Origin: Methanosphaera stadtmanae
Lineage (GTDB): Archaea; Methanobacteriota; Methanobacteria; Methanobacteriales; Methanobacteriaceae
NCBI GenBank assembly: GCA_015062825.1
Contig: SUTR01000005.1
Span: 16,459 to 80,458 of the forward strand
DNA: 64,000 nt
Direction of reading: 5' to 3'
A program made the translations under genes and the position numbers. This document shows, piece by piece, positions 693 to 63,910 of the stretch. Position 1 is the stretch's first letter. Each line of letters begins with the position of its first letter. The notes under the pieces were generated by a model. The model worked only from the letters and a program-made list of their open reading frames with translations, had not been told where the DNA came from and made no database searches.

Positions 693-1424
693 ATGAAGGG
701 TAAATTGATAGGAGATATATTAGTCGTTAAAAAAGAACCTGAAAATATGGAAGAGATACTGAAATTACCATATGTAAAGAATATTGTGAAAATCGGTACG
801 ATTCATGGACAAAAAAGAGAACCGAATGTTACAATAATTTATGGTGATAGAACAGAAACAATTCATAAGGAAAACTATTGTAAATTTAAGATAGATGTTG
901 CTAAGGTAATGTGGTCTAAGGGCAATACTGGTGAAAGAAAAAGAATGAGTACTCTTCCTGAAGACAATGAAACTATCATTGACATGTTTGCAGGAATTGG
1001 ATATTTTACTATCCCCATGGCTGTTCATTCTAATGTTAAAAAGATTTATGCAATAGAGATTAATCCTGTCTCCTATAACTTTTTATGTGAAAACATAAAA
1101 TTAAATAAAGTTGAAGATATTGTAGAACCAATTCTTGGTGACTGCAATCTTCAAGAGTTTGATCATGTTGCCGATAGAATTATGATGGGTTATATCGGAA
1201 CCACACATCATTACCTGGATAGTGCCATTAAATATCTGAAAAAAGGTGGCATCATCCATTATCATGAGTCTACCCCGGAACCTATCCTATTTACAAGACC
1301 TGTTGAAAGAGTAAAAGATGCTGCTAAAAAACAAGGAAGAGATATTGAAGTTCTTAATAAACGTAGCATTAAGAAGTACTCTCCAGGTGTTCATCATACT
1401 GTTGTAGACATAAAGGTTAATTAA
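693..1424 (+). CDS. taw2: tRNA wybutosine-synthesis protein Taw2/Tyw2-like SAM-dependent transferase
   Basis: Trm5/Tyw2-type Rossmann fold: 'DMFAGIGYFTIPMAVH', 'RIMMGYIGTTHHYLDSAI', 'GGIIHYHES'. ATG at 693 preferred over TTG at 678. Confidence 0.75.
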   Translation: MKGKLIGDILVVKKEPENMEEILKLPYVKNIVKIGTIHGQKREPNVTIIYGDRTETIHKENYCKFKIDVAKVMWSKGNTGERKRMSTLPEDNETIIDMFAGIGYFTIPMAVHSNVKKIYAIEINPVSYNFLCENIKLNKVEDIVEPILGDCNLQEFDHVADRIMMGYIGTTHHYLDSAIKYLKKGGIIHYHESTPEPILFTRPVERVKDAAKKQGRDIEVLNKRSIKKYSPGVHHTVVDIKVN

Positions 1425-2517
1425 TTCCATTTCTTTTTTTAATTTTTATTGCTTTATCATATACCTCTTGACTTAAGTACTCCCTATTAATATATTTATC
1501 ATAGACAGGTAGTCGTTCACTTAAGGTATAATTTATATTTCTTAATTGTCTTTCTAAATCATTTATTCTTGGCCATTTGTCATTTGGATTTATGTAATCC
1601 TTTGTTAATGGAGATATTCCTCCAAAATCATCTGCTCCCATAAGAGTAAAAATGGGTACCAGTCCATCGTTAAGATTTGGTGGAATCTGGATACTTACAT
1701 CAGGAAACATTAATGATGATAATAATGTTAATTTTATTAAATCCGTTATTGGAGGTTCTGGATAATCAGCCATGGGAATGTTTTCTTTAGGCTTGAAATT
1801 TTGTAGTATAATCTCTTGTATATGACCATATTTATCTTGAATTTTTCGTAACTTAAATAAGGAATCTATACGGTCATCTTTTGATTCGCCTATTCCTACA
1901 AGTAATCCTGTTGTGAACGGTATTTTCTCACAACCTGCATTTTCAATTAGTTTTAAGCGTTTTTTGGGATCTTTGCTAGGACTTTCCTGATGTACTATTG
2001 TTTTTAGCAATTCTTTATTTGTTGTCTCAAGCATCAATCCCATTGATGCGTTTACTCTTGACAATTTAGATAACTGATTTCTTGTAATGATGCCCATATT
2101 GGTATGTGGAAGGATTTCATATTCGTTTAGTAGTACCTTTGATAGATGGTAGACATATTCTACCATGGAATCATATCCATATTCATCGAGTTTTTTTAGA
2201 ACTAAATCATTTTTATCTGCTGATTCTCCAAATGTGAATAAGCTTTCAGTACAATTATAATCTCTTGCTTTTTTTGCAATGACGTAAACATCTTGGGGAT
2301 TCATCAAGAGATTGTCTGTTTGTTCTGGAGTCTCTTTAAATGTACAATAGCCACAGTTATTTTGACAGATATGTGTTAAAGGTAGAAAAATATTTTTGGA
2401 ATACGTGATATTATTTGATGTTCTTTTTAAATTAACTTCCTTTATTATTTGAAGTATATCCACAATACCATAATCCAACATTTCACGGGCTTCTTGTTTT
2501 GACAATAGATTATGCAT
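1417..2517 (-). CDS. cofG: 7,8-didemethyl-8-hydroxy-5-deazariboflavin synthase subunit CofG
   Basis: Radical SAM motif CQNNCGYC; 'LPHTNMGIITRNQLSKLSRVNASMGLMLET' is typical of CofG (coenzyme F420 synthesis). Confidence 0.88.
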   Translation of the reverse strand: MHNLLSKQEAREMLDYGIVDILQIIKEVNLKRTSNNITYSKNIFLPLTHICQNNCGYCTFKETPEQTDNLLMNPQDVYVIAKKARDYNCTESLFTFGESADKNDLVLKKLDEYGYDSMVEYVYHLSKVLLNEYEILPHTNMGIITRNQLSKLSRVNASMGLMLETTNKELLKTIVHQESPSKDPKKRLKLIENAGCEKIPFTTGLLVGIGESKDDRIDSLFKLRKIQDKYGHIQEIILQNFKPKENIPMADYPEPPITDLIKLTLLSSLMFPDVSIQIPPNLNDGLVPIFTLMGADDFGGISPLTKDYINPNDKWPRINDLERQLRNINYTLSERLPVYDKYINREYLSQEVYDKAIKIKKRNGIN

Positions 2518-21013: not shown

Positions 21014-21088
21014 TGCTCCGACCGGGATTCGAACCCGAGTCTTCGGCTCGAAAGGCCGAAATGATTGGCCGGACTACACTATCGGAGC
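21014..21088 (-). tRNA. tRNA-Glu(UUC), copy 1
   Basis: Cloverleaf GCTCCGA...TCGGAGC; anticodon loop CTTTCGA. Confidence 0.93.
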
Positions 21089-21103
21089 TAAATAAAAAAA
21101 TTA

Positions 21104-21176
<73 letters not shown>

Positions 21177-21196
21177 AAATAAATACATATAAATAG

Positions 21197-21268
21197 GGCC
21201 GGGGCCGAGAATCGAACCCGAGTCGGAGGATCCACAGTCCAACAGTCTAACCACTAACCTACCCCGGC
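21197..21268 (-). tRNA. tRNA-His(GUG)
   Basis: GCCGGGG...CCCCGGC acceptor, loop CTGTGGA, C73 discriminator. Confidence 0.9.
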
Positions 21269-21305
21269 ATATAAATTAAAGGAAATAAATGTTCTTTTCC
21301 TTGAG

Positions 21306-21389
<84 letters not shown>

Positions 21390-21501
21390 ATATAAAAAAT
21401 TATATCCGCAAACCTTCTATTACTGGAATATTAACATTTATAAAATACTCTAGAATCTATAATTAATTAATAAATTTTAATAAAAGAAAGGTTCTAGAAA
21501 A

Positions 21502-21576
21502 TGCTCCGACCGGGATTCGAACCCGAGTCTTCGGCTCGAAAGGCCGAAATGATTGGCCGGACTACACTATCGGAGC
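21502..21576 (-). tRNA. tRNA-Glu(UUC), copy 2
   Basis: Identical by eye to the copy at 21014-21088. Confidence 0.93.
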
Positions 21577-21584
21577 ATATGAAA

Positions 21585-21661
<77 letters not shown>

Positions 21662-21671
21662 AAAATTATAG

Positions 21672-21744
<73 letters not shown>

Positions 21745-21794: not shown

Positions 21795-21962
21795 TTACTC
21801 TAAAATACATATTTTTTAAGTATTGTTAAAGCACATAATAATGTATGTTTTAATAGTATATATACTTAACGGTCTAATGTTTTTAATAATTAATAAAATA
21901 GTAAAATAAAGAAGAATAAATATTATAACAATGATTTAATATTTGCTTTAGGAGTAATTAAT

Positions 21963-22973
21963 GTGGATGTAATAGAAAAAATAAATAACAGAGAAATATT
22001 TGATTTACTAATAGAAGCTAATAATATTACAGAAAGAGTACATGGAAAAGATATTAGCTTAGAACGCGCAATATTCCTATCATGGTGGTGTGAAAAAGGA
22101 GATTGTAAATTTTGTTATATGTCATCCCAAAAAGATAGAATACAAGACCCTGATAAGGCAAGACGACATATAAAAGGAATTTATGCAGAAGCAGAATTGA
22201 CAAAACGTATGGGATGGAACATTGAATTCCTATCTGGAGGATATGGTGTTTACACGACCCAAGAAATTAAAGAAATATCCGAAACAATATATGATATAAC
22301 CGACAATCCTGTCTGGTTAAATATTGGAATAACCAACGAATTAGATCAATATGATGATGAAATTATAGGTGTTACAGGTGCTGTTGAAACGGCAAACCCC
22401 CAATTTCAACATGAAATTTGTCCTAGCAAATCATTAACCGATATTAAAAATATGCTAATACAAGCAGACCAATTAGGATATAAAAAAGCAATAACAATAA
22501 TTATAGGATTAGGTGAACAAATAGAACATTTAAATGATTTATTTAATCTTATTGAAGAATTAAACATTGATAGAATAATTTTCTATTCATTAAATCCACA
22601 TCCTGATACTGAATATCATCTAACACCACAACCAGCATCATTATATTATGCGAGCATTGTTGCAAGTGTAAGAATTAAATTCCCACATATAGAAATCATA
22701 ACAGGAACCTGGACGGACAACTTAGCAAACATAGGAGTACTTCTTAAAGCAGGAAGTAATGGACTAACAAAATTCCCATTATTTAAAATGTACGGTAATA
22801 GATTTGGAAGAAGAGTTGAAGAAGAAGTAAAATGGGCAAATCGAAATTTAATAGGAAGTTTTTCAGATTTAGAATTACTAAAACAGGGAAATAATTTACG
22901 TCCAGAATTAGATCCTTATATACAAAGATATATTAACATGTGTTATGAGAATAGAGATATCAAAAAAATATAA
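21963..22973 (+). CDS. Radical SAM protein with non-canonical CX4CX2C motif (BioB/HydE/HcgA-like)
   Basis: 'WWCEKGDCKFCYMSS'; GTG start with GGAG 8 nt upstream. Confidence 0.7.
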   Translation: MDVIEKINNREIFDLLIEANNITERVHGKDISLERAIFLSWWCEKGDCKFCYMSSQKDRIQDPDKARRHIKGIYAEAELTKRMGWNIEFLSGGYGVYTTQEIKEISETIYDITDNPVWLNIGITNELDQYDDEIIGVTGAVETANPQFQHEICPSKSLTDIKNMLIQADQLGYKKAITIIIGLGEQIEHLNDLFNLIEELNIDRIIFYSLNPHPDTEYHLTPQPASLYYASIVASVRIKFPHIEIITGTWTDNLANIGVLLKAGSNGLTKFPLFKMYGNRFGRRVEEEVKWANRNLIGSFSDLELLKQGNNLRPELDPYIQRYINMCYENRDIKKI

Positions 22974-30761: not shown

Positions 30762-30807
30762 TAGATATGATGAAAGATCATATCTATAATCTGCATAGTT
30801 TATGCAG
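30762..30807 (-). terminator. Tandem hairpins at the 3' end of the first adhesin gene
   Basis: tagatatgat-gaaag-atcatatcta (10-bp stem) and ctgcata-gtt-tatgcag (7-bp stem; overlaps the stop codon). Confidence 0.5.
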
Positions 30808-33800
30808 TTATGTTTAATGTTTTTATATCTTCAATTTTAATGTCAGATGATATATAGGTTGCAGTTATTGTATATTCTTTTGCTTTGTATGAGGATGGAA
30901 TTGTATAACTATCAATTATTGCCATTCCATTTACAACTTTAGCATATATAACTTTACCATTTGCATCTTTAACTGTTTTACCATTAATCTTAAAGACTAC
31001 TTTACCAGTGTTGACCGGTTCAGTTCCTGCATTTATTGTAGCATTTAATGAAATTGTACTGCCTGCTGTTGCAGTTATGTCATTGGTTGTAATTGTAGGT
31101 TGTGGTTGTACTATTGTAATATTGTATTTATCACTGGTCATGGAAGATATTTCTGCACATCCAGTGTATGATGCAGTTATTGTTGTGTTTTCTTTGTTCC
31201 ATGAATCTGGTACTGTGAAGTCATCAATTATTGCTGTTCCATTTACTACTTTAGCATAGATTACTTTTCCATTTGCATCTTTAAGTGATTTACCATTGAC
31301 TTTAAATACTACTTTTCCTTTGTTAAGGATTTCTACAATTTCTGAACCTTGATATATGGTTGCTTTTAATTGTGTTGTTTGACCAATAGTGAATGTTGTT
31401 GTGTCAACTGTTATCATTACTGGTAATTCAACAACTTTTATTGTGTTTGTTGCATTGCTGTCTGCATATTTTTCTGATTGATTAAATGTTGCAGTTATTG
31501 TTGTGTCAAGTTCTTCATCGAATGTGTATGTTATTGTTGCTTGTGAGTTTTCTACATTTGCTGTTGCAAGTACTGTTCCATCTTCTAAGGTTAATGTTAC
31601 TTTTCCTTCATTTACTGTACTGTCATCAGCAGCATTTATTGTAACGGTTATTGTTACTTGTGTACGTGCAATTGTATCAATTGCATTTAATACTACTGTT
31701 GTATCTACAATTGCATTTATGTTTTGACCAGTAGTGTCTTCTGATGCAAAGTAGTTATTTGTTTCTTCAAATGCTGCGGTAACTGTATGTTCACCAGCTG
31801 TTGTTACTGTGTATTTTGCTGTGTATGTACCATCATCATTATCAGTTATATCTGATAAAATTGCTTCACCATCAACTTTAATTATGATTGTTTGACCTGT
31901 TAATCCTGCATTATTATATGAATCATTTAATTCAACATTTATTGTGATTTCATCATTTACTTTTACAGGAGTTGTTATTGGTTGAACTGTTATTGTTGTA
32001 GGAGTTTTTACTGTGAATTCTACTACATTGCTTGTTTTGTTTTCAAGATAGTAATCTTGACCAGCATATTCTGCTGTTACATTATATAATCCATTAGCTG
32101 TTGTCAAGTAGGAGTATGTGAATATTCCTTGATCATCTGTTGTGATTTCTGCATTTACTGCTTCACCATTAATGTATAAGGTAATATCCTGTGCTGCTAT
32201 TGGATTATCATTAGCATCAGTTAATTTACCAGTTATTTCTACATTTGTACCGATAGTTACTGGACTTGTTATTTCATCAACTACTATTTTTGTAGAAGTG
32301 ACAACAACTACATCTTGTGAGCTGGAAGCACTACCAAGATAGAATCCATTATCTTCAAATACTGCTGAGATAGGAATTACTCCAACAGTTGTGGTTTCAT
32401 AATCATATGTGAATGTACCATCATCAGATGTCTGAGCAGTTTCTGTAGTTTCACCTAATTTAATTGATACGTTTTGACCTGCAAGAGCATTGCCTTGTAC
32501 ATCTGTAAGTTTACCGGTAACTGTTACTTTATCACCAACATTTACAGGAGTTGTAATAGCCTCAAGTGTAATTTGTGTATCAGCTTTTACAGTTACAGTT
32601 ATATTACCATAACTTAATGAATATACTTCATCACCATCAAATACTGCAGTTATAAGGTTTTCACCAATAGTTTCTGGTGTAAATACGTATGTGAATTTAC
32701 CTTCACTATCAGTAGTTACAGTACTTTCAGCTTCACCAACTGTGAATTTAATTTCTTTGTCTGCTACACCATTACCATTAGCATCTTTTAATGTACCGTT
32801 TAATTCAACAGCACCGTCACCAACTTTAACAATAAATCCTTCATCTAATTCATCAAATGCTAATGTGGTAGCACTGGTTACTGTTACATTTATTGATGCT
32901 TCATTACTGTCAAGGTAATAATCATTAGCATTGAATTTAGCAGATACTGCAATTTTACCTGGTGCTGTTGGTGTGTAGGTGTATGTGAATTTACCTTCAC
33001 TATCTGTAGCATCAGATTCAAATGATTCTTCACCAATTGTAATTGTTACTTTCTGGTTTTCTACAGGAACATTATCTCCATAGGTTAAAGTACCAGTTAT
33101 TGTAGTTTCTTCATTTACTTTTGCATTTGTTATTTCATCAAGTGTTATGGTTGTTGCTACTTTATTTGTTACATTTACTGTGTTTGATTTGTTTGCAATG
33201 TAATGTTCATCATCTAATTCGGCATATATACTGATTATTCCAGGATTATTTGCTGTGAATGTGTATGTGAATTTACCTTCTGAGTCAGTTGCTTCACTCA
33301 TACCCATTAATTCATCATTGACATAGATATTTACTTGTTTATCTGATATTCCGTTATTGTTACTGGTTAATGTACCGGTTACTGTTATAGGTGTGCTTTC
33401 ATATACTTCTTTGTCTGTTGAGATAACTATTTCAGCTTGGATTTTGTAGTCTAATTCTTTTTCTTCAGATATGAATGTGTAGTAATGATCAGATGATATG
33501 AGTTCAAGTTTTATAGTTGTATTTTTTGCCTGTGTTTGTGTGATTGTAAAATTGAATTTACCATTTGTTTCTACTGGATATTCTCCTATTTCTACATCAT
33601 CAACATATACTTTAACTGTGTCATTTCGATAAGATTTATAGAGGTAATCATATACTTCTCCTGTAATAGTGGTTTCTTCCCCAACTATTAGATATTCAGG
33701 ATAGTCCATTACGAAATGTGTTAAGACATAACCTTCATCTACAAATACTCCATTGATAGTATTGTTATCTCTTGTTACATTTACATCATCACTAGGATTA

Positions 33801-36343
33801 TGTGAAATTACAGTATCTTTATCTATATATTGTGAATCAATAGTTATATTTGAATTTGTTAATGATACATTTGCTTTGACAGGTGATGCTATTGCACCTT
33901 TATTAATTGTACTTCCTTCACCATGGAATATAACTGTATTGTTGACAAATTCTGATTCGTCAATTGTTAATTTACCATTGAAAAAGTAAATTGCTCCACC
34001 GTAAAACTCTGCATTGTTATTTGTGAAAGTTGTCTGATTGATTGTTAAATCGTTGTAAGAATATACTGCTCCACCTACATCTGCTTGGTTATTAGTTAAA
34101 GTTGAATTGTCTACTGTAACTATTGCATCAGTATTACTAAATACAGCTCCACCATCTTCAGCAGAATTATTTGTGAACTTTGAACTGTCTACTGTAACTT
34201 TTACACTAGTATCACCATATACAGCTCCACCCTTATTAGCAGAATTATTTGTGAATTCACTGTTATTTATTGAAACATCAACTTTTGTATAAATTGCACC
34301 ACCAGTTTTATTTGCAGAGTTATTTGTGAATTTTGAATTGTTCACATTTAAAGTTACATCCTCACTATGAATTGCACCACCAGTGTTATTAGCAGAGTTA
34401 TTTGTGAATTCAGAGTTGTCAATATATGTTTCATCTACTGCGAAGATTGCACCTGCATCATTATTTGCATAATTGTTGATAAATTTTGAATTATTTACTG
34501 TTAATGGACCAAATGCATTAATTGCTCCACCTTCCCATTGAACAGAATTGTTGATAAATTTTGAATTATCAATTTTTGTATTTGCATGGGAATAAATTGC
34601 GCCACCAGCACCACATTCATTATTATTGGTGAAGTTTGAATTATTGACTGTTAACTGACCTTCCTGAATATATATTGATCCGCCATTCTTTGCAGATTGG
34701 TTATTGAATGTTGAACTATCAATTATTGTTGTACTTTCAGCATAAACTGCAGCTCCTGAAGGAGCATAGTTATCCATAAATTTGGAGTTGTTAACAGATA
34801 ACGGACCATAGGATAATATTGCTCCACCCATTACTGTTGATGAAATATTTTTGAATTTTGAATTGTTTATTGTAATTTCTGCATCATTGTCTCCATATAT
34901 AGCTCCACCCCAATCACCAGATATGTTTTCAAAGTTAGAGTTATCTATAGTTGCTGTTGCATATGTTAGGAAAATTCCAGTACCACTATTTCTTCCAAGA
35001 TCATCTTCAGTTTCTGCAGTATTTTCAATACCTTTTTGATTGGTGAAATTAGTATTGTTTATTGTTATTTGATTGTTATAAGAGTATATTGCTCCTCCGC
35101 TTAATGCAGTGGTATTATTGAAATTTGAATTATCTATTAATGCTGTATGGTATGCTATATACAATGCTCCACCTTGTGAATCATCAGGAGAATAATGATT
35201 AGTGAAATTGGAATTGTTTAAAATGAATAGATAATCACTATCTTGATCGGATTCTACATAAATTGCAGCACCAGCTCCATTATCATATCTACCATTATCT
35301 TCAAATGAGGATAAATCTACAGTTAAATCACCCTTAGAATAAATTGCTCCACCTAGAAATCCAAGATTATTTTTAAAGGTAGATTTATTTATAGTTAAAT
35401 CAGACTTGGAGTAAATTGCTCCACCCCAATAATATGCATCATTACCTATGAAAGTGGAGTCAATTATCATTGCTTCTGCATTTTCTGCATAAATAGCAGC
35501 TCCACCATTTTCCCCATTATTAATATAACCATTTTCAAATGTAGAGTTTTCTACATACAAATAACCATCATTTATTCTGATGGATCCACCAGAAAATGCT
35601 ACCCAGCTTCCAGTGAAATATGAATTAGTTACCGTGAGATCATTATTGGTAAATATTACACCACCATTTCCAGCATTAGCCTTATTGTCCTTAAAGGTAC
35701 AATTGGTGAAAGTGACCTCAGAACTACCTCCATTTATTACTCCACCTTGATAATCAGCCTGACATTCAATAAATGTTGAGTTTTCAAGGATTATTTCTCC
35801 ACTAGTTATTGAAAATACTCCACCATCACCTGAAGTTTTACAATTTTGTACTGTAATATTTGCTATGGTTAATATTAACCCATTATTTCCACCGTTCATC
35901 CATTGTTTACTATCACCGTTTAATGTTGCACCATTACCATTGATTGTTATTGTTACTGGTTTATTTATGGATATAGTATCGGTTATGGTATATGTGTTTT
36001 CAGGATTTAACTTGAATGTTGCTTCATCATCATATTCTAATGCATCTATTCCTGATTTTAATGAATCATAGTCATTAACTATTATTTCATCTTCTGTTTT
36101 TATATTTTTAGCTGTTTTATCCAGCTTTGAATTTACTTCCTTATTTGTATTATTTGTTGTTTTGTCAATTGTTTGTTGTGTTTCCTTTGATACTTGTATT
36201 GGTTCGGTTATTGGATTGTCTGCATTGTTTACAACTTGTGTTGTAGTTGTGTCTGTCGTGTTATCCGTTGCATATAGTATCGAACTTGTTAATAATGTAA
36301 ATAATAATACAATAAAGAAGAATACATATTTCTTCTTGATCAT
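30800..36343 (-). CDS. Adhesin-like protein, 1847 aa: beta-helix repeats plus Ig-like repeats
   Basis: Signal peptide 'KKKYVFFFIVLLFTLLTSSILYA'; many 'FTNNSANxGGAIY' repeats; then many 'G.LTD..G..V....V...V' Ig-like modules. Confidence 0.88.
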   Translation of the reverse strand: MIKKKYVFFFIVLLFTLLTSSILYATDNTTDTTTTQVVNNADNPITEPIQVSKETQQTIDKTTNNTNKEVNSKLDKTAKNIKTEDEIIVNDYDSLKSGIDALEYDDEATFKLNPENTYTITDTISINKPVTITINGNGATLNGDSKQWMNGGNNGLILTIANITVQNCKTSGDGGVFSITSGEIILENSTFIECQADYQGGVINGGSSEVTFTNCTFKDNKANAGNGGVIFTNNDLTVTNSYFTGSWVAFSGGSIRINDGYLYVENSTFENGYINNGENGGAAIYAENAEAMIIDSTFIGNDAYYWGGAIYSKSDLTINKSTFKNNLGFLGGAIYSKGDLTVDLSSFEDNGRYDNGAGAAIYVESDQDSDYLFILNNSNFTNHYSPDDSQGGALYIAYHTALIDNSNFNNTTALSGGAIYSYNNQITINNTNFTNQKGIENTAETEDDLGRNSGTGIFLTYATATIDNSNFENISGDWGGAIYGDNDAEITINNSKFKNISSTVMGGAILSYGPLSVNNSKFMDNYAPSGAAVYAESTTIIDSSTFNNQSAKNGGSIYIQEGQLTVNNSNFTNNNECGAGGAIYSHANTKIDNSKFINNSVQWEGGAINAFGPLTVNNSKFINNYANNDAGAIFAVDETYIDNSEFTNNSANNTGGAIHSEDVTLNVNNSKFTNNSANKTGGAIYTKVDVSINNSEFTNNSANKGGAVYGDTSVKVTVDSSKFTNNSAEDGGAVFSNTDAIVTVDNSTLTNNQADVGGAVYSYNDLTINQTTFTNNNAEFYGGAIYFFNGKLTIDESEFVNNTVIFHGEGSTINKGAIASPVKANVSLTNSNITIDSQYIDKDTVISHNPSDDVNVTRDNNTINGVFVDEGYVLTHFVMDYPEYLIVGEETTITGEVYDYLYKSYRNDTVKVYVDDVEIGEYPVETNGKFNFTITQTQAKNTTIKLELISSDHYYTFISEEKELDYKIQAEIVISTDKEVYESTPITVTGTLTSNNNGISDKQVNIYVNDELMGMSEATDSEGKFTYTFTANNPGIISIYAELDDEHYIANKSNTVNVTNKVATTITLDEITNAKVNEETTITGTLTYGDNVPVENQKVTITIGEESFESDATDSEGKFTYTYTPTAPGKIAVSAKFNANDYYLDSNEASINVTVTSATTLAFDELDEGFIVKVGDGAVELNGTLKDANGNGVADKEIKFTVGEAESTVTTDSEGKFTYVFTPETIGENLITAVFDGDEVYSLSYGNITVTVKADTQITLEAITTPVNVGDKVTVTGKLTDVQGNALAGQNVSIKLGETTETAQTSDDGTFTYDYETTTVGVIPISAVFEDNGFYLGSASSSQDVVVVTSTKIVVDEITSPVTIGTNVEITGKLTDANDNPIAAQDITLYINGEAVNAEITTDDQGIFTYSYLTTANGLYNVTAEYAGQDYYLENKTSNVVEFTVKTPTTITVQPITTPVKVNDEITINVELNDSYNNAGLTGQTIIIKVDGEAILSDITDNDDGTYTAKYTVTTAGEHTVTAAFEETNNYFASEDTTGQNINAIVDTTVVLNAIDTIARTQVTITVTINAADDSTVNEGKVTLTLEDGTVLATANVENSQATITYTFDEELDTTITATFNQSEKYADSNATNTIKVVELPVMITVDTTTFTIGQTTQLKATIYQGSEIVEILNKGKVVFKVNGKSLKDANGKVIYAKVVNGTAIIDDFTVPDSWNKENTTITASYTGCAEISSMTSDKYNITIVQPQPTITTNDITATAGSTISLNATINAGTEPVNTGKVVFKINGKTVKDANGKVIYAKVVNGMAIIDSYTIPSSYKAKEYTITATYISSDIKIEDIKTLNITA
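30803..33715 (-). repeat. Ig-like tandem modules within the first adhesin
   Basis: Recurrent 'ITVTGTLTSNNNGISDKQVNIYV...FTYTFTANNPGIISIYAELD' type units; the last two units are near duplicates. Confidence 0.75.
33900..35900 (-). repeat. Beta-helix (Pmp/right-handed helix type) repeats within the first adhesin
   Basis: Tandem 'xINNSxFTNNSANxGGAIYS' units. Confidence 0.8.
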
Positions 36344-36994: not shown

Positions 36995-39900
36995 TTAGTC
37001 TACAACATCAGTTATTCCTGCATCCATGACAGGTTCATCAAATCCAACGGGGTTATCGGTGTGAACATCTTCACCAGTTGCGGGTATGTTTTCTTCACCT
37101 GTATAACCATCATCTGCTCTGACTTGGATGTAGTTAGGAATATAATCTGTATCGTCATATTCTAATACTATTTGACCATTTTCATCAAAGTGTATATTTT
37201 CTTCACCTAAAATGGCGACTAAATCTTCAAAAGTGATATTTCCATTCAAATATAGAATATATATGTATAGTTTATATTTGAAGTTATCATAACTATATGT
37301 CTTATACGTTGTTACAGAATGCGTAACTGGTCTTGAATAGTGATATGTTTTAGTTTTTGGAACAGTGATTGTTTGTGTCCTGTTTTTTGTTACTGTTTTC
37401 TGTTCAATTTCAGTATAAGTTTCATTTTTATACTTTGTTATTGTAACAGGTTCTGTTATAGTACTTGTTTCATTCCTGTATTTAGTTACATTTCTGTATC
37501 TGGTTTCAGGTTCAATAACTGTCCTAGTCTTAGTAACATTTCGATATTTTGTTACAGGTTCAACAACTGTCCTAGTCTTAGTCACATTTCTGTATCTAAC
37601 CTCAGGAACTGAAATTGACCTATACTTAGTAACATTACGATATCCTATTTCAGGTTCAACAACTGTCCTAGTCTTAGTCACATTTCTGTATCTAACCTCA
37701 GGAACTGAAATTGTTCTAGTCTTTGTTACATTTCGATATTTTGTTACAGGTTCAACAACTGTTCTATATTTTGTAACATTTCGATATTTTGTTACAGGTT
37801 CAACAACTGTCCTAGTCTTAGTCACATTTCTAAATCTAGTTTCTGGAACTATGACAGTTCTATTTTTTGTAACATTTCTATACATTACCACTGGTTCAAC
37901 TACTGTTTTATACTTTGTTACATTACGATATTTAATTACTGGTTCTCCAATAACTATATATTTTGTAACATTTCTGTATCTGACCTCTGGTACGCTAATT
38001 GTTCTATTTTTAACAATTTTTTCTGTTTCATTGTATGGTTCAACAATTGTTCTGTTGACTATATATGGTTCTTCGACTGTATAATTGATTACTCGTGTAA
38101 CATTTTCAGTGTACTCTTCTACTTCAGTATAAGGAACTTTTTTAGTTACATTTTCAATATACTCCTCTACATCAGTATAAGGAACAGTCTTATTCACATA
38201 AACAGTATACTCCTCTACATCAGTATAAGGAACAGTCTTATTCACATAAACAGTATACTCCTCTACATCAGTATAAGGAACAGTCTTATTCACATAAACA
38301 GTATACTCCTCTACATCAGTATAAGGAACTGTTTTAGTTACATTCTCAACATATTCTTCTACTTCAGTATAAGGAACAGTCTTAGTCACATTAACAACAT
38401 ACTCTTCTTCAACGATATAAGGAACAGTGACTGTAATATTTCTTGTTACATTAACTGTTTCATTATATGGTACTTCACGAGTATGTTCAACAGTTACATT
38501 AACTGTTTCATTGTATGGAACTATTATCTCTTCTGTATCATTATACTCAACGGTTTCATCATATTCTTCTAATTCAGTAATGTTTTCAACAAAACTTTCT
38601 GTTATGTTTTCTACAGTACTTTCATTTTTAAGTACGAATCCCCATGCGAATTCAAATGGAAGAGGATATAAATATATACCAAATGTTCTCTGATAGTCTT
38701 GATCAGCTACATATTTGTTAGGATGACTGTATGCAAAGTAGTAATTATATAGGGTATTGTCTACTACTACAGTTCCATTATTTGCTGGTACATGTCCTGC
38801 TTCAACTAATTCTATTGTTTCATTTACAAATTCACTTATTGGATGACTATTTCCATCCGCATCTATAATTGATTTATCATACCATGAATCTGATTGATCC
38901 CTGTAGGAAAAATCAGTAAATCCATATATTACATTTTGTTTTTGAATATCTTCGGTGAAATTCTGAGTATCACCCAAGTGAGTAATTATGAATGTTTTAA
39001 GATATTTTACAACATCTTCTGACGTATATGCATTATCTCTTGTCTGGTTAGATGTTGTATCTCCGTACATTTCCCTATCATATATTACAGTATCAATAGG
39101 TGCGGCCCTATTTTTATCAATACAATATGCCATGTATCCATCTTCATAGTAAATAGGAATTCCACTAGATATTACAGATACATTTGTGTTAATTAAATGT
39201 TTAACTACTTCATGTATTGTTACTGTTGTATTATGTGGGAATTCTTCCGTATGATTATAACCTGTAGTATTATGATTTTCTAAAATAACTTCAATATCAT
39301 GTTCATGATATTCTGTTGCTATTTTATAACTTTTAGATGCAGAATTTTTAGCAATCTTCTGATTATTGCTTGTTTTTGCAATATTTTGATCAGGTAATTT
39401 TTCCACTACATTATATGTGAATTCTTCACTTGCAGAGTTATAATTACCATCTTCAACATATGAAAGTTTGCCTGCGAATTTTCCTAATTTTTTCTGTACT
39501 GCACTATAATTGAAGTATCCTTCTGATACAGTAGTAATTGTCACGTTATTATTGTTTATAGTTAACAATAATTTAGCATTTTCAATTGCATGTCCTTCAT
39601 TATCCAAGAGTATTCCAGTGATTGTTAATTTATCATTGAGTTCTACATCTTTTTGACTTTGAGTCATGATGATTACTGCATCTTTTTTGTTAAAGCTAAA
39701 TCTTACATTTTTACTGCATGGTTCATATGCATTATTTCCATTGAATTTAACAGTTACGTTGTTTAATCCTCGAATTGTAGCATGATGTGTGTAATGGAAT
39801 TCATTTGTTGATTCGACTCTTAATGTATGTTTTTGACCATTAATTATCAAGTCAACATATGCATTTTTAACTTTTTGACCATTAGCATCAGTTAATTTAC

Positions 39901-42900
39901 CACTTATTTCTATGAAATCATTTACTTCAGGATTGTTCTTATCAATGGATAATGTAATATTTGTCTTTTTCTTAACAACATTGATTTGTTTGGAATTAGT
40001 TGAATTTGTACGTTGTTCATCCCCATAATATATTGCTGTAACGTTTTTTATACCCATACTTGTTGCTTTGTATGGTAGGAAAAATTCTCCATCATCATCA
40101 GTATATAGATAATATTTTCCATTGTTTATATAAACGGTCACTTGATTATAGTTAATTCTACCATAAAGACCACTTAATGTTCCGTTGATTATTGTTTCTT
40201 CACCAATAGTCATCTCTTCGGGAACATCTAATGTAATAGTAGTATTACGTTTTTTCATTATGAAGGTTGTATTGTTATTAGCAGATTGATAATCTTCTGA
40301 TTCATTAACATGTACAGTTACATTGTTTACTCCTACAAATCTAGTAGTTGTCCAATATTCAAAGTAACCGTTTTCATCTGTTTCTAAACCAATAGTAAAT
40401 ATGTTTATTTTTAAACCAATATCTATATCTTTTCTACCAGTACCATCCCAACCTTTTAACCATCCATATATAAGTAACTTATCACCATATAATTCTTCTT
40501 TACGATCAGTGTATAATTCAAGAGTAGTTTTTGCTTTATCTATTTCAACAGTTGTAGTGTTTGAACCTGGAGTATAGGTTTCATTTCCAGCATATGATAC
40601 ACGAATATGTTCGGTATTTGCTTCAATGATAGTAGTTGTAAATGAAAATCTTCCATTTTCATCTACAGGTATGTTATCATTATTATGACCATTGAAATAT
40701 ATTGATACATTGGTATTTTTAATTATATTACCATTTCTATCACGTAATGTACCACTTACTGTTAATGAATCACCTAATGTTCTATTTTTCTTAGGTATTT
40801 CATCAATTTCAATGATTGATAAACCATATACTGCTTGTAATGTAAATGAATCATTACTACTTATATAATATTTTTGAGCTATACCTTCTTCGAAAACTGC
40901 ACGAATTGTGTAATTTCCTTCAGGTAAGTTTTCAGTACTTCCAGCAAACCTGAATTTAGTTAATTCTTCAGCAAATACAGTTCTGTTCTTATCTTCAGCG
41001 TATTCCGGATCAGTTCCATTTATTCTTACATCTATATATGATGGTGTGAGATGTAGATACGTATCATGGTTTTCAATTGGTTTACCTTCTTCATCATCCA
41101 AGGTCAATACAACATAACATGAAGTATTTGCTTGGATGTATGGAATTGGTAATAATTTTAGTTTTGTACCCATCTTAATAACTTTTATGTTAGTCCAATC
41201 ACTTGATGCTTTATAAAGCTGATCACCCTTGAATGATACTGAAAGATTTTTATCTTCCATATATCTTATTCTACGAGTATAATTAAATTCACCTTTAAGA
41301 TTGGTTTCAATAGAATATGTATCTTTATGTTCATATCCATTTACATATACATCAAGTTGAACATTAGGTATAGGATTACCATTCTTATCTTTTAATGTTC
41401 CATTTAATTTTAACATTTGTGAATATTTGAAGGTATATTCATCTTCATCATCATTTTTAGAGGTATAATTAGTTACCTCAAATGTTAAAATGGTATCTAA
41501 TGGAGTTGTATTAAATGTTAATAACTTTCTAGCTTCATCATACTTATCATTACCAGGATAAAATATTAATACTCTGTTGTTTCCTAGTTTAGTTGAATTG
41601 AATTCATATTTGAAGTTACCATTCTTATCAACATTTACTTCTTTAACATCACCATTGATTGTGATGTTTATCTTAGTGTTTCCAATTGGTCCATCAACAC
41701 TAGATAATGTACCGGATACTGTTACTGTGTCATTATAAACAACATCATTTATGGTTTTTGCATTTAAAACTGTATTACTACTTGTAATTGTGACTGATGT
41801 GCTGTTTTCTGAAGGATAATATTTATCATCTCCATCATATCTTACAGATATGTTTAAAGGTCCAGCCACATGAGGAATATAATCAGTATATTCAAATGAA
41901 CCATATTTATCCAACTGAATAGGAATTTCTGTTGAATTAATTATTAATGTTGCATTGACAGAAGAAATTGCACGTCCATCATCGGATTGTAACTTACCTG
42001 TTATAGGTAAATGTTGACCTACTACAGTATCATTTGCTGTGATACTAATATGGGTTCTTTGAGGTAATTCCACTGTCCAATTGAATCCATGATAATCTAA
42101 TCTTGGTGAGACAAACTCTAACCTTATTGAATTAGATTTCATATTATTCATTGTATTCTTATCAATGACAATTGTTGATTGATTGTTATTTACATCAAAT
42201 TGTTTATATAAAACACCATCAACATAAACGTTAAGTTTACTGTTATCAACTGATGAATTACATACTTCACGTATTTGAAGTGTTGCATTTGCAACATAAT
42301 TTCCATTTTTATCAAATGATTGACGAAGATCTCTATAGAAGACTTCTAAATAATTACTAATGTAAGTATTGTTTGTTACATAGTAATCTGCAAAATCACC
42401 AAACAACATCCCATGTTTGAAGTTGGTGTTGTTTCTGAAGACATTGTTTGTTATTTCAATATAGTTTTCTGAATATGAACTTTTATCTGAACGAACCACA
42501 TCATAATGCCAATTTAATGATTCTTCATCCAATTCAATAGTTATAACATTTCCAGTTAAATTAGAACCATTAATACGCGTGTAACCATAATAATAATGTT
42601 CAGTCACGTGACTTACAATAACTCCATATAGTCCACTATTATTAATTAATTCTGAATTATCTATTTCAATGCGTGTATTCATTGAATTTAATACACTGGA
42701 TTCATTACCAATGTTGTTGATTATTTTTGAATTGTTAATTGTTATATTTGAATATTCAGCCATTGTTAGACCTATACTCGTTGCAGTATTGTTAACAAAT
42801 GTTGTATCATTTATATCAAGATTTGTATAATATACTGCTACTGTAGAACTTAAATTAGCTACATTATTGGTAATGTTTAATGAATCCATACTTGCATTTG

Positions 42901-44806
42901 TATTAATCAAGTAGATTGCAGATCCTCTATAACCATTGTTTTTATCAAATGTAACATTAGAGAATTTTAAATTAACATCATATTCAGTTAAATTTTGAGA
43001 ACGACCTGCTCTGATTGCTCCACCATTATAACCTGTGTTATTGATAAATGAAGAATCACTTAAGGTTAAATTTGATTTATCAAACGTGAGGATTAATGCC
43101 CCACCATCCCCTATAGCATGATTATTTATGAATGAAACATTATTTCCAACCAGTTCTGAGACAGAAGCAACTGCTCCACCAGAAACACGTGCAGTATTGT
43201 TTTCAAATAAAGTATCATTTGCTATTAAAAGAATTGAATAAATTGCCCCTCCCAAATTACTAGCTGAATTATTAATGAATGTATTATTCAAAGAGGTCAC
43301 ATGATAATTCCATGAATTAATAGCTCCACCATAATATGCAGAGGAATTAGTGAAATATGAATTGCTAATTATGCCATTCCCATGACTACTGATAGATCCA
43401 CCACGTGTCCAATGACTAGATTTATCAATATCAGAAGCATTACTTTTTGCACTATTGTTAATGAATATTGAATTATTAACTGATAAATCAGTACTTGTAT
43501 ATATAGCTCCACCTTCTTTAGTAACATTATTGTTGACGAAAGTGTTATTGTTTATGGCTAAAACAATTTTATTTCCACCTTTACTATAAATAGCTCCACC
43601 ATTTGATATAGCAGAGTTATTTTTGTATAGGTTATTATCTGATATTAAATTAGCATCTGTAAAGATTGCTCCACCATCACCATAATATTCTGCTTCAGTT
43701 TTTACATCTGCATGTTCAGGATTTGTCGGATCATAAACTATTCTTTCATAGTTTTCATCATATGCAAACTTTCCATAGTCATCAAGTAAATAATCAATAC
43801 CATATCCATGTACTTTATTATTTGTGAAGTTACTATTTTTAATAGTGATATTTGACTTAGAGTATATAGCTCCACCATATACTCCTGCAGTATTATTTAC
43901 AAATAAAGAATCAGCTACTGTACTAGTCTTATTCAATGTTATTACAGCCCCACCATTGGCCTTAGCATAGTTATTAATAAATTTTGATTCGTTTATGAAT
44001 ATACCATTCTGTGTATATATTGCACCACCATTATCTGATGCATTGTTACCAGAAAATGTGGAATTAATAACTTTTACTATATTACGACTATTCTCAGATG
44101 CATGCCATATTGCAGCACCAGACCATACAGCAGTGTTATTTTCAAATAAGCTATTGATAACAGTAACATTACCCTTACTGTAAATTACTCCACCATTACT
44201 ACCACCGTTGTTAGTAAACTTAGAATCAGACAAGGTTATATTCGAATTAGTATTACTGTAAATAACAGAACCATCCGAAGTACTTTTACAATTAGATATT
44301 GTAATATTAGTAATATTTAATCCAGATTTACTCTTTTCTAATTTAATAAATTGGTTATTATTACCGTCAATTGTCTGACCATTACCATCTATTGTTATAA
44401 TTAATCGTTTACTAATTGTTATTGGAGTTGTAACTGTGTACGTTCCAACATTCAGTGTTATTTTTATAGTATCTCCTGCAATATTAGATTTTGATTCGAG
44501 TACACTTTTTAGTTCATCATAATTGTTAACAGTCTTCTCATAATTTGCTGTTTTCAAAGTCTTAAGATTACTGGTTAAGTTATTTGTCGAATCATTTGAG
44601 ATATTTTTAGTTTTTACATCACTTTTGGTATTTGTTTCAACATTGTATGCATTATCAGTACTTAAGTCATTTTGCTGACTTGTAGTCATCTGCATAGAAT
44701 TATCATTATCTGATAAACTATCTGTTGCAGATATCACTCCCATACTAATAAATAAACACACGAATGTTAAAATAAAAAATATAACTTTATATTTTTTACT
44801 TACCAT
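36995..44806 (-). CDS. Giant adhesin-like protein, 2603 aa: beta-helix, Ig-like modules, thioester-domain-like module, sequon-rich stalk
   Basis: Signal peptide 'YKVIFFILTFVCLFISMGVISA'; 'NNSAxxxGGAIYS' repeats; Ig-like repeats; 'AYCIDKNRAAP...QNVIYGFTD'; 16-aa C-terminal repeats. Confidence 0.88.
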   Translation of the reverse strand: MVSKKYKVIFFILTFVCLFISMGVISATDSLSDNDNSMQMTTSQQNDLSTDNAYNVETNTKSDVKTKNISNDSTNNLTSNLKTLKTANYEKTVNNYDELKSVLESKSNIAGDTIKITLNVGTYTVTTPITISKRLIITIDGNGQTIDGNNNQFIKLEKSKSGLNITNITISNCKSTSDGSVIYSNTNSNITLSDSKFTNNGGSNGGVIYSKGNVTVINSLFENNTAVWSGAAIWHASENSRNIVKVINSTFSGNNASDNGGAIYTQNGIFINESKFINNYAKANGGAVITLNKTSTVADSLFVNNTAGVYGGAIYSKSNITIKNSNFTNNKVHGYGIDYLLDDYGKFAYDENYERIVYDPTNPEHADVKTEAEYYGDGGAIFTDANLISDNNLYKNNSAISNGGAIYSKGGNKIVLAINNNTFVNNNVTKEGGAIYTSTDLSVNNSIFINNSAKSNASDIDKSSHWTRGGSISSHGNGIISNSYFTNSSAYYGGAINSWNYHVTSLNNTFINNSASNLGGAIYSILLIANDTLFENNTARVSGGAVASVSELVGNNVSFINNHAIGDGGALILTFDKSNLTLSDSSFINNTGYNGGAIRAGRSQNLTEYDVNLKFSNVTFDKNNGYRGSAIYLINTNASMDSLNITNNVANLSSTVAVYYTNLDINDTTFVNNTATSIGLTMAEYSNITINNSKIINNIGNESSVLNSMNTRIEIDNSELINNSGLYGVIVSHVTEHYYYGYTRINGSNLTGNVITIELDEESLNWHYDVVRSDKSSYSENYIEITNNVFRNNTNFKHGMLFGDFADYYVTNNTYISNYLEVFYRDLRQSFDKNGNYVANATLQIREVCNSSVDNSKLNVYVDGVLYKQFDVNNNQSTIVIDKNTMNNMKSNSIRLEFVSPRLDYHGFNWTVELPQRTHISITANDTVVGQHLPITGKLQSDDGRAISSVNATLIINSTEIPIQLDKYGSFEYTDYIPHVAGPLNISVRYDGDDKYYPSENSTSVTITSSNTVLNAKTINDVVYNDTVTVSGTLSSVDGPIGNTKINITINGDVKEVNVDKNGNFKYEFNSTKLGNNRVLIFYPGNDKYDEARKLLTFNTTPLDTILTFEVTNYTSKNDDEDEYTFKYSQMLKLNGTLKDKNGNPIPNVQLDVYVNGYEHKDTYSIETNLKGEFNYTRRIRYMEDKNLSVSFKGDQLYKASSDWTNIKVIKMGTKLKLLPIPYIQANTSCYVVLTLDDEEGKPIENHDTYLHLTPSYIDVRINGTDPEYAEDKNRTVFAEELTKFRFAGSTENLPEGNYTIRAVFEEGIAQKYYISSNDSFTLQAVYGLSIIEIDEIPKKNRTLGDSLTVSGTLRDRNGNIIKNTNVSIYFNGHNNDNIPVDENGRFSFTTTIIEANTEHIRVSYAGNETYTPGSNTTTVEIDKAKTTLELYTDRKEELYGDKLLIYGWLKGWDGTGRKDIDIGLKINIFTIGLETDENGYFEYWTTTRFVGVNNVTVHVNESEDYQSANNNTTFIMKKRNTTITLDVPEEMTIGEETIINGTLSGLYGRINYNQVTVYINNGKYYLYTDDDGEFFLPYKATSMGIKNVTAIYYGDEQRTNSTNSKQINVVKKKTNITLSIDKNNPEVNDFIEISGKLTDANGQKVKNAYVDLIINGQKHTLRVESTNEFHYTHHATIRGLNNVTVKFNGNNAYEPCSKNVRFSFNKKDAVIIMTQSQKDVELNDKLTITGILLDNEGHAIENAKLLLTINNNNVTITTVSEGYFNYSAVQKKLGKFAGKLSYVEDGNYNSASEEFTYNVVEKLPDQNIAKTSNNQKIAKNSASKSYKIATEYHEHDIEVILENHNTTGYNHTEEFPHNTTVTIHEVVKHLINTNVSVISSGIPIYYEDGYMAYCIDKNRAAPIDTVIYDREMYGDTTSNQTRDNAYTSEDVVKYLKTFIITHLGDTQNFTEDIQKQNVIYGFTDFSYRDQSDSWYDKSIIDADGNSHPISEFVNETIELVEAGHVPANNGTVVVDNTLYNYYFAYSHPNKYVADQDYQRTFGIYLYPLPFEFAWGFVLKNESTVENITESFVENITELEEYDETVEYNDTEEIIVPYNETVNVTVEHTREVPYNETVNVTRNITVTVPYIVEEEYVVNVTKTVPYTEVEEYVENVTKTVPYTDVEEYTVYVNKTVPYTDVEEYTVYVNKTVPYTDVEEYTVYVNKTVPYTDVEEYIENVTKKVPYTEVEEYTENVTRVINYTVEEPYIVNRTIVEPYNETEKIVKNRTISVPEVRYRNVTKYIVIGEPVIKYRNVTKYKTVVEPVVMYRNVTKNRTVIVPETRFRNVTKTRTVVEPVTKYRNVTKYRTVVEPVTKYRNVTKTRTISVPEVRYRNVTKTRTVVEPEIGYRNVTKYRSISVPEVRYRNVTKTRTVVEPVTKYRNVTKTRTVIEPETRYRNVTKYRNETSTITEPVTITKYKNETYTEIEQKTVTKNRTQTITVPKTKTYHYSRPVTHSVTTYKTYSYDNFKYKLYIYILYLNGNITFEDLVAILGEENIHFDENGQIVLEYDDTDYIPNYIQVRADDGYTGEENIPATGEDVHTDNPVGFDEPVMDAGITDVVD
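37430..38020 (-). repeat. Basic stalk repeats, 16-aa period (e.g. VTKYRNVTKTRTVVEP)
   Basis: More than ten degenerate copies of 'YRNVTKxRTVVEPxxx'. Confidence 0.85.
38080..38530 (-). repeat. Acidic stalk repeats, 16-aa period (VPYTDVEEYTVYVNKT)
   Basis: Degenerate 16-aa units containing EEY and an N-x-T sequon. Confidence 0.85.
38162..38330 (-). repeat. Perfect 48-bp tandem repeat, about 3.5 copies
   Basis: ctcctctacatcagtataaggaacagtcttattcacataaacagtata repeats with unit starts at 38162, 38210, 38258 and 38306. Confidence 0.92.
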
Positions 44807-62608: not shown

Positions 62609-63910
62609 ATGACACAAATGCAAGAAGCCAAAAAAGGTATTATTACACAAGCCATGAAAGATGTGGCAAAAGATGAAAAATTAGATGTTGAATATGTTAG
62701 AAAAATGGTTGCGAAAGGATATATTGCTATTCCAGATAATAATCAAAGAGAAACTGTTGCAGTAGGTATAGGACAAAATTTACGTACAAAAGTCAATGCA
62801 ACTATTGGAACATCCACAGATATCATAGACTTAGATGATGAACTAACAAAAGCCAAAGCTGCTGAAGAAGCAGGCTGTGATACCTTAATGGAATTAAGTA
62901 TTGGTGGAGACTTGGATTACATTAGAAGAACAGTTTTAAGTCAAACCAAAAAACCGGTTGGAAGTGTACCAATATATCAAACTGCAGTAGAATCCATAGA
63001 AAAAAATGGTTCTGTTATTGACATGGATGCAGACGACATGATTAAAAATATTGAAAAACAAGCAAAAGATGGTATAGATTTCATGGCTATCCACTGTTCA
63101 GTCAACAGGGAAACACTCAAAAGACTTAAAAGACAAGGAAGAAAAGGAGGACTTGTCAGTAGAGGAGGTTCATTCATATCATCATGGATGGTACATCATG
63201 ATGCAGAAAATCCATTATATGAAAACTATGATCAGATATTAGATATTGTAGAAGAATATGATGTTTGTTTAAGTATGGCAAATGCCATGAGAGCAGGAGC
63301 ACTTACAGATTCCACCGACAGGGCTCAGATACAAGAACTAATAGTACTTGGCGAATTAGTTGATAAAGCAAGAGAAAGAGGAGTTCAAACAATAGTTGAA
63401 GGACCAGGACACATACCAATTAATGAAATTGAAACAAACATTAATATTCAGAAAAAAATGTGCAATAATGCACCATTCTACATGTTAGGTCCTATTGTAA
63501 CAGATATTGCACCTGCTTATGACCATATTGTATCAGCTATTGGAGCCGCACAATGTGCTCGTTATGGAGCTGATTTCATATGTTATGTAACACCAGCCGA
63601 ACATCTAGCATTACCAGATGCACAAGATGTTAAAGATGGAGTAATAGCTACCAAAATTGGAGCTCATGCTGGAGACATAGCAATAGATATGGAAAGATTT
63701 GGAGAAGATGACATTAAAATGGCAGATGCAAGGAAACAGCTTAATTGGGCAGAACAATATCAACTTGCAATGTGGCCAGAAGATGCTAAGGCAATAAGAG
63801 ATAAAAGACCTCCTGAAGCAGATGATACCTGTACAATGTGTGGAAATTATTGTGCAGTTAAAATAGTAAGTCAATGGCTAGATAAAGCAGATATAGATGT
63901 ATTTGATTAA
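62609..63910 (+). CDS. thiC: Phosphomethylpyrimidine synthase
   Basis: '[37 protein letters not shown]', '[12 protein letters not shown]', C-terminal CX2CX4C 'CTMCGNYC'. Confidence 0.93.

Follow-up and report, generated by a model that had tools for sequence, protein, structure and literature searches.

The radical SAM protein of 336 amino acids encoded in the 64,000-nucleotide stretch of Methanosphaera DNA analyzed here (the window) is the Methanosphaera orthologue of the archaeal family NF004911 and probably a stand-alone, single-cluster enzyme with a small-molecule substrate. More tentatively, NF004911 itself may represent an unrecognized class of archaeal radical SAM enzymes, found in Methanobacteriota, Methanococci, and small-genome nonmethanogens, with a naturally variable CX4-5CX2C loop and a reaction that has not been described. 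The family is near universal in Methanobacteriota, including the gut genera Methanosphaera and Methanobrevibacter, and occurs in many small-genome archaea, and it carries no assigned function.

The gene and its family

The gene (positions 21963 to 22973, forward strand) begins with GTG, and a likely ribosome-binding site, AGGAG (21950 to 21954, forward strand), lies 8 nucleotides upstream of this start. The nearest relatives of the window are Methanosphaera metagenome-assembled genomes. Compared with seven congeneric sequences, the protein has 83 to 88% identity, and the dN/dS ratios of approximately 0.04 to 0.10 indicate strong purifying selection within Methanosphaera. The gene is thus real and well conserved, and it belongs to a methanogenic archaeon of the gut. 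Just upstream, on the opposite strand, are seven tRNA genes (21014 to 21744, reverse strand); Rfam matches to Plastid-ycf2 on the other strand of this cluster were below threshold and were dismissed as spurious.

In the NCBIfam search, the protein matched NF004911 (PRK06267.1, "hypothetical protein") with a bit score of 507.6, about 200 bits above the cutoff of 305, and the match is full length, with residues 8 to 330 of the protein aligned to positions 2 to 322 of the 351-position profile. By this score the protein is a clear member of an uncharacterized family. The Pfam Radical_SAM profile scores 29.3 bits on the Methanosphaera protein, 0.2 bits under the gathering cutoff of 29.5, and matches all 26 NF004911 members tested, with E values down to 6e-15; no other Pfam family matches the Methanosphaera protein at an E value below 0.01. 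The cysteine triad characteristic of the radical SAM superfamily is invariant and is located, in the structural model described below, in the loop that follows the strand of residues 30 to 38.

We found no paper on PRK06267 or on MJ0597, the latter being a guessed gene number for Methanocaldococcus jannaschii, and no biochemical work on any member of NF004911, so that cluster binding and SAM cleavage stay predictions. Mvol_1414 of Methanococcus voltae has been named as a CX5CX2C protein with homology to HydE (PMC9431491); this protein may belong either to NF004911 or to HcgA.

A noncanonical cysteine loop is the rule in NF004911

The preliminary description of this DNA had reported a CX4CX2C motif, and direct reading of the gene bears this out: C43, C48, and C51 (22089 to 22115, forward strand) stand in the context SWW-C43-EKGD-C48-KF-C51-YM. 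The suggestion that a shifted alignment might recover the canonical CX3CX2C fails, because the protein contains cysteines only at positions 43, 48, 51, 153, and 327. In an alignment of 122 NF004911 members from four groups, the three motif cysteines are invariant (100%). Of the 122 sequences, 108 have CX4CX2C and the other 14 have CX5CX2C; CX3CX2C was found in none. CX4CX2C is present in all 31 members from Methanobacteriota, all 11 from the phylum around genome G306, and 66 of 67 from the small-genome phylum around genome G228, while CX5CX2C is found in all 13 members from Methanococci and in one small-genome member. Noncanonical spacing is the rule within this family. With the triad invariant and the gene under purifying selection, the CX4CX2C spacing is not a product of chance. 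It had been considered that the protein might fall into a well-characterized subgroup in which CX4CX2C is standard; the spacing is indeed standard in NF004911, but this family is uncharacterized.

CX4CX2C has been listed beside CX3CX2C as a signature motif (PMC3087415), and a Cx4Cx2C motif has been reported for GenD1, which like GenK is a cobalamin-dependent radical SAM methyltransferase (PMC4340712). Since GenD1 and GenK have cysteine spacing identical to that of the Methanosphaera protein, the spacing alone has precedent. In contrast to these cobalamin-dependent enzymes, the Methanosphaera protein is only 336 amino acids long and has Radical_SAM as its sole Pfam match. CX5CX2C, in turn, has been described as unique to HcgA (PMC10100467, PMC3087415), but the methanococcal orthologues in NF004911 carry the same spacing, and the motif is therefore not unique to HcgA. 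It loses its value as a mark of HcgA, and annotators should not read FeGP cofactor synthesis from it. The occurrence of two spacings within one family offers a natural test of how far the radical SAM cysteine loop may vary. The window itself supplies an internal contrast in a CofG-like radical SAM protein (1417 to 2517, reverse strand) with a canonical CX3CX2C motif (CQNNCGYC).

Predicted fold and active site

An AlphaFold2 model computed from 47 Methanobacteriales sequences alone, free of ligands, has a pLDDT of 92.1 and a pTM of 0.91, and its predicted fold is a barrel of the HydE/BioB/PylB type. Foldseek ranked HydE first (E value, 8e-15; TM score, 0.68), followed by BioB (TM score, 0.72), MqnE, PylB, HydG, and ThiH. 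When the family profile was searched against the sequences of the Protein Data Bank, HydE (59.6 bits), PylB (53.5 bits), and BioB (41.2 bits) were the leading matches, and the BioB/HydE-like scaffold proposed in the preliminary description thus agrees with both searches. HydE, BioB, MqnE, PylB, and ThiH have in common a closed barrel and small-molecule substrates. Residues 245 to 278 (22695 to 22796, forward strand) include several invariant positions and form, in the model, a BATS-like C-terminal part that would close the barrel; Pfam BATS matches 9 of the 26 NF004911 members.

The best profile and fold match, HydE (PDB 3ciw and 7o1t), shares the closed barrel, and its E161 aligns with E142 (22386 to 22388, forward strand), which is 100% conserved in NF004911; however, HydE has a CX3CX2C motif, its R159 is replaced by alanine in the alignment, sequence identity is only about 19%, and HydE appears to fall in a separate clade. 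PylB, the methylornithine synthase (PDB 3t7v), is likewise a single-cluster closed barrel and the second-best profile match among solved structures, but it also has CX3CX2C and a distinct clade, and the Methanosphaera protein, with 34.7 bits, misses the cutoff of 348.2 for the PylB family TIGR03910.

A second family signature, C153-P-S-K156 (22419 to 22430, forward strand), is located in the segment that follows strand 4. Its lysine, K156, is invariant, and C153 is 91% conserved in the 122 members, with valine or alanine otherwise. Because valine or alanine replaces C153 in several members, this cysteine is unlikely to be indispensable. The alignment contains no second conserved cysteine set beyond the triad, and since C153 is the sole further conserved cysteine, no second cluster like those of BioB and SPASM enzymes is expected.

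We propose that C43, C48, and C51, in an enlarged loop, bind a single [4Fe-4S] cluster where a full TIM-type barrel opens, and that the CX5CX2C loop of the Methanococci would serve the same cluster-holding role. SAM would be anchored by the unique iron of the cluster, with E142 as the probable contact to the ribose, by analogy with HydE E161, and K156 as the probable contact to the carboxylate, by analogy with BioB R173. Reductive cleavage of SAM would then yield a 5'-deoxyadenosyl radical, which could take a hydrogen from a small substrate enclosed by the barrel, much as PylB and HydE do. The chemistry would be of a mutase, lyase, or maturation type, in contrast to the insertion of sulfur or methylation dependent on B12.

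Distribution of NF004911

NF004911 was found in 137 of 152 Methanobacteriota genomes (87 of the 91 good ones), and each of the 13 Methanococci-type genomes tested carries it as well. Two complete Methanothermobacter-type genomes and five Methanopyrus-type genomes lack it. Outside these groups it is present in 16 of 23 genomes from the phylum of G306 and in 86 of 211 from the phylum of G228, mostly of 0.6 to 2 Mb, a phylum that from its small genomes is probably DPANN-like. No bacterial member was found among the control genomes. Many of the small-genome members are divergent and score below the NF004911 cutoff, and these may use a different substrate. A role specific to methanogenesis was rejected, as mcrA is missing from every one of the 18 genomes tested that carry NF004911 but belong to no methanogen group. 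One genome, which we took to be that of M. jannaschii, also contains a broken second copy of the gene with stop codons (L180; G357:C1:742424-742672).

Gene neighborhood and candidate pathways

No conserved operon partner was detected in about 110 loci, and the commonest Pfam family accounts for only 4 of 87 operon-like neighbors. That no neighbor is kept across lineages underlies the reading of the protein as a stand-alone enzyme, and, together with the occurrence of the family in small genomes that lack methyl-coenzyme M reductase, it suggests that the enzyme acts alone in one step, on a metabolite or cofactor precursor that is common. In Methanobacteriota, the NF004911 gene is followed in conserved order by gatB, a gene for a CBS-domain protein, and hisE, an arrangement that we take for housekeeping synteny. 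Farther along the window are two very large repetitive adhesin-like proteins of 1,847 and 2,603 amino acids (30800 to 36343 and 36995 to 44806, reverse strand).

Two more specific roles were suggested by neighbors in other lineages, and we consider each of them unlikely. The first is a role in thiamine metabolism, for example, with a thiazole or pyrimidine precursor as the substrate. Directly downstream of the NF004911 gene lies thi4 in most Methanocaldococcus-type genomes read, and thi4 is nearby at one further Methanococci locus (L196). In two nonmethanogen genomes from the phylum of G306, thiDN overlaps the NF004911 gene (L226:3175-5515 and L227:7892-10230, both reverse strand), and thiC is found within the window (62609 to 63910, forward strand). 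Against this, the two adjacency events were chosen after the fact and are weak evidence, and the presence and absence of the two genes do not match: Thi4 is missing from all Methanosphaera and from most Methanobrevibacter-type genomes, where NF004911 is retained, and Thi4 is present in the two Methanothermobacter-type genomes and in the Methanopyrus-type genomes that lack NF004911. A partnership with Thi4 was therefore rejected despite the adjacency. As Thi4 is absent throughout Methanosphaera, where the window has its ThiC-like gene, thiazole would have to come from another source.

The second role, to which we give about the same small chance, is the supply of a small precursor for archaeal tRNA modification. 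Neighbors connected with translation recur across lineages, among them gatB with tRNA genes, serS, archease, and TrhP-type U32 proteins, and the occurrence of the family in small genomes would fit a housekeeping modification. In one small genome (L209:6839-10430, reverse strand), the NF004911 gene stands between genes for a TrhP-like U32 protein and a prephenate dehydrogenase-like protein, and the three are closely packed with some overlap; by its annotation, TrhP depends on prephenate. Such neighbors are common in archaea, however, and none is conserved across lineages (serS, archease, and the U32 proteins, like thi4, thiDN, NAD synthase, and a glucosidase-like protein with a nucleotidyltransferase, were each seen in one or a few lineages), and the NF004911 gene is dispensable in some species. 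A self-contained step catalyzed by a stand-alone enzyme remains the reading that we prefer over either role.

Relationship to HcgA and BioB

The preliminary description had likened the protein to HcgA (HmdB), another archaeal BioB-like radical SAM protein with an enlarged cysteine loop, which in that case is CX5CX2C and linked to hmd. The HcgA profile TIGR03957 is indeed the second NCBIfam match, and the methanococcal orthologues share their loop spacing with HcgA, but the score of 49.6 bits is far below the cutoff of 320.9. The absence of hmd and hcg genes noted for the window extends to the genus, as the 20 Methanosphaera genomes searched contained neither hmd nor an HcgA above the cutoff. 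HcgA above the cutoff is present in 103 of 396 genomes. Methanococci genomes contain hcgA and NF004911 as distinct genes, and Methanopyrus-type genomes contain hcgA without NF004911. Since each occurs without the other, the two genes are uncoupled in both directions, and this, with the holders that lack mcrA, ties NF004911 to neither the FeGP cofactor nor methanogenesis.

Phylogenetic analysis placed all NF004911 sequences in one clade (support, 100/100) on a long branch of 1.86 changes per column. HcgA forms its own clade (100/100), with the Methanosphaera protein outside it, and HydE joins PylB. A topology with NF004911 and HcgA as sisters was not rejected (p-AU, 0.225); one that joins NF004911 to HydE, represented by a single partial sequence, was near the limit (p-AU, 0.0525). 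NF004911 is distinct from HcgA but may be its distant sister. A role in FeGP cofactor synthesis was rejected on the profile score, the separate clade, and the missing hmd and hcgA genes, and an HcgA-like function, in that pathway or toward a related pyridinol, is very improbable, being largely refuted by the distribution. The enzyme, we think, carries out one self-contained step that belongs to neither FeGP synthesis nor methanogenesis.

Sulfur insertion of the biotin synthase type is just as improbable, for although BioB (TIGR00433) is the third NCBIfam match and its fold is close, the score of 45.8 bits misses the cutoff of 225, and the cysteines of the sacrificial second cluster of BioB are missing, with just C153 and the nonconserved C327 left outside the triad. 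Another archaeal BioB/HydE-like protein (L250:872-1900, reverse strand) also has a CX5CX2C motif (CVMEKYCIYC) and sits on a very long branch outside every group tested.
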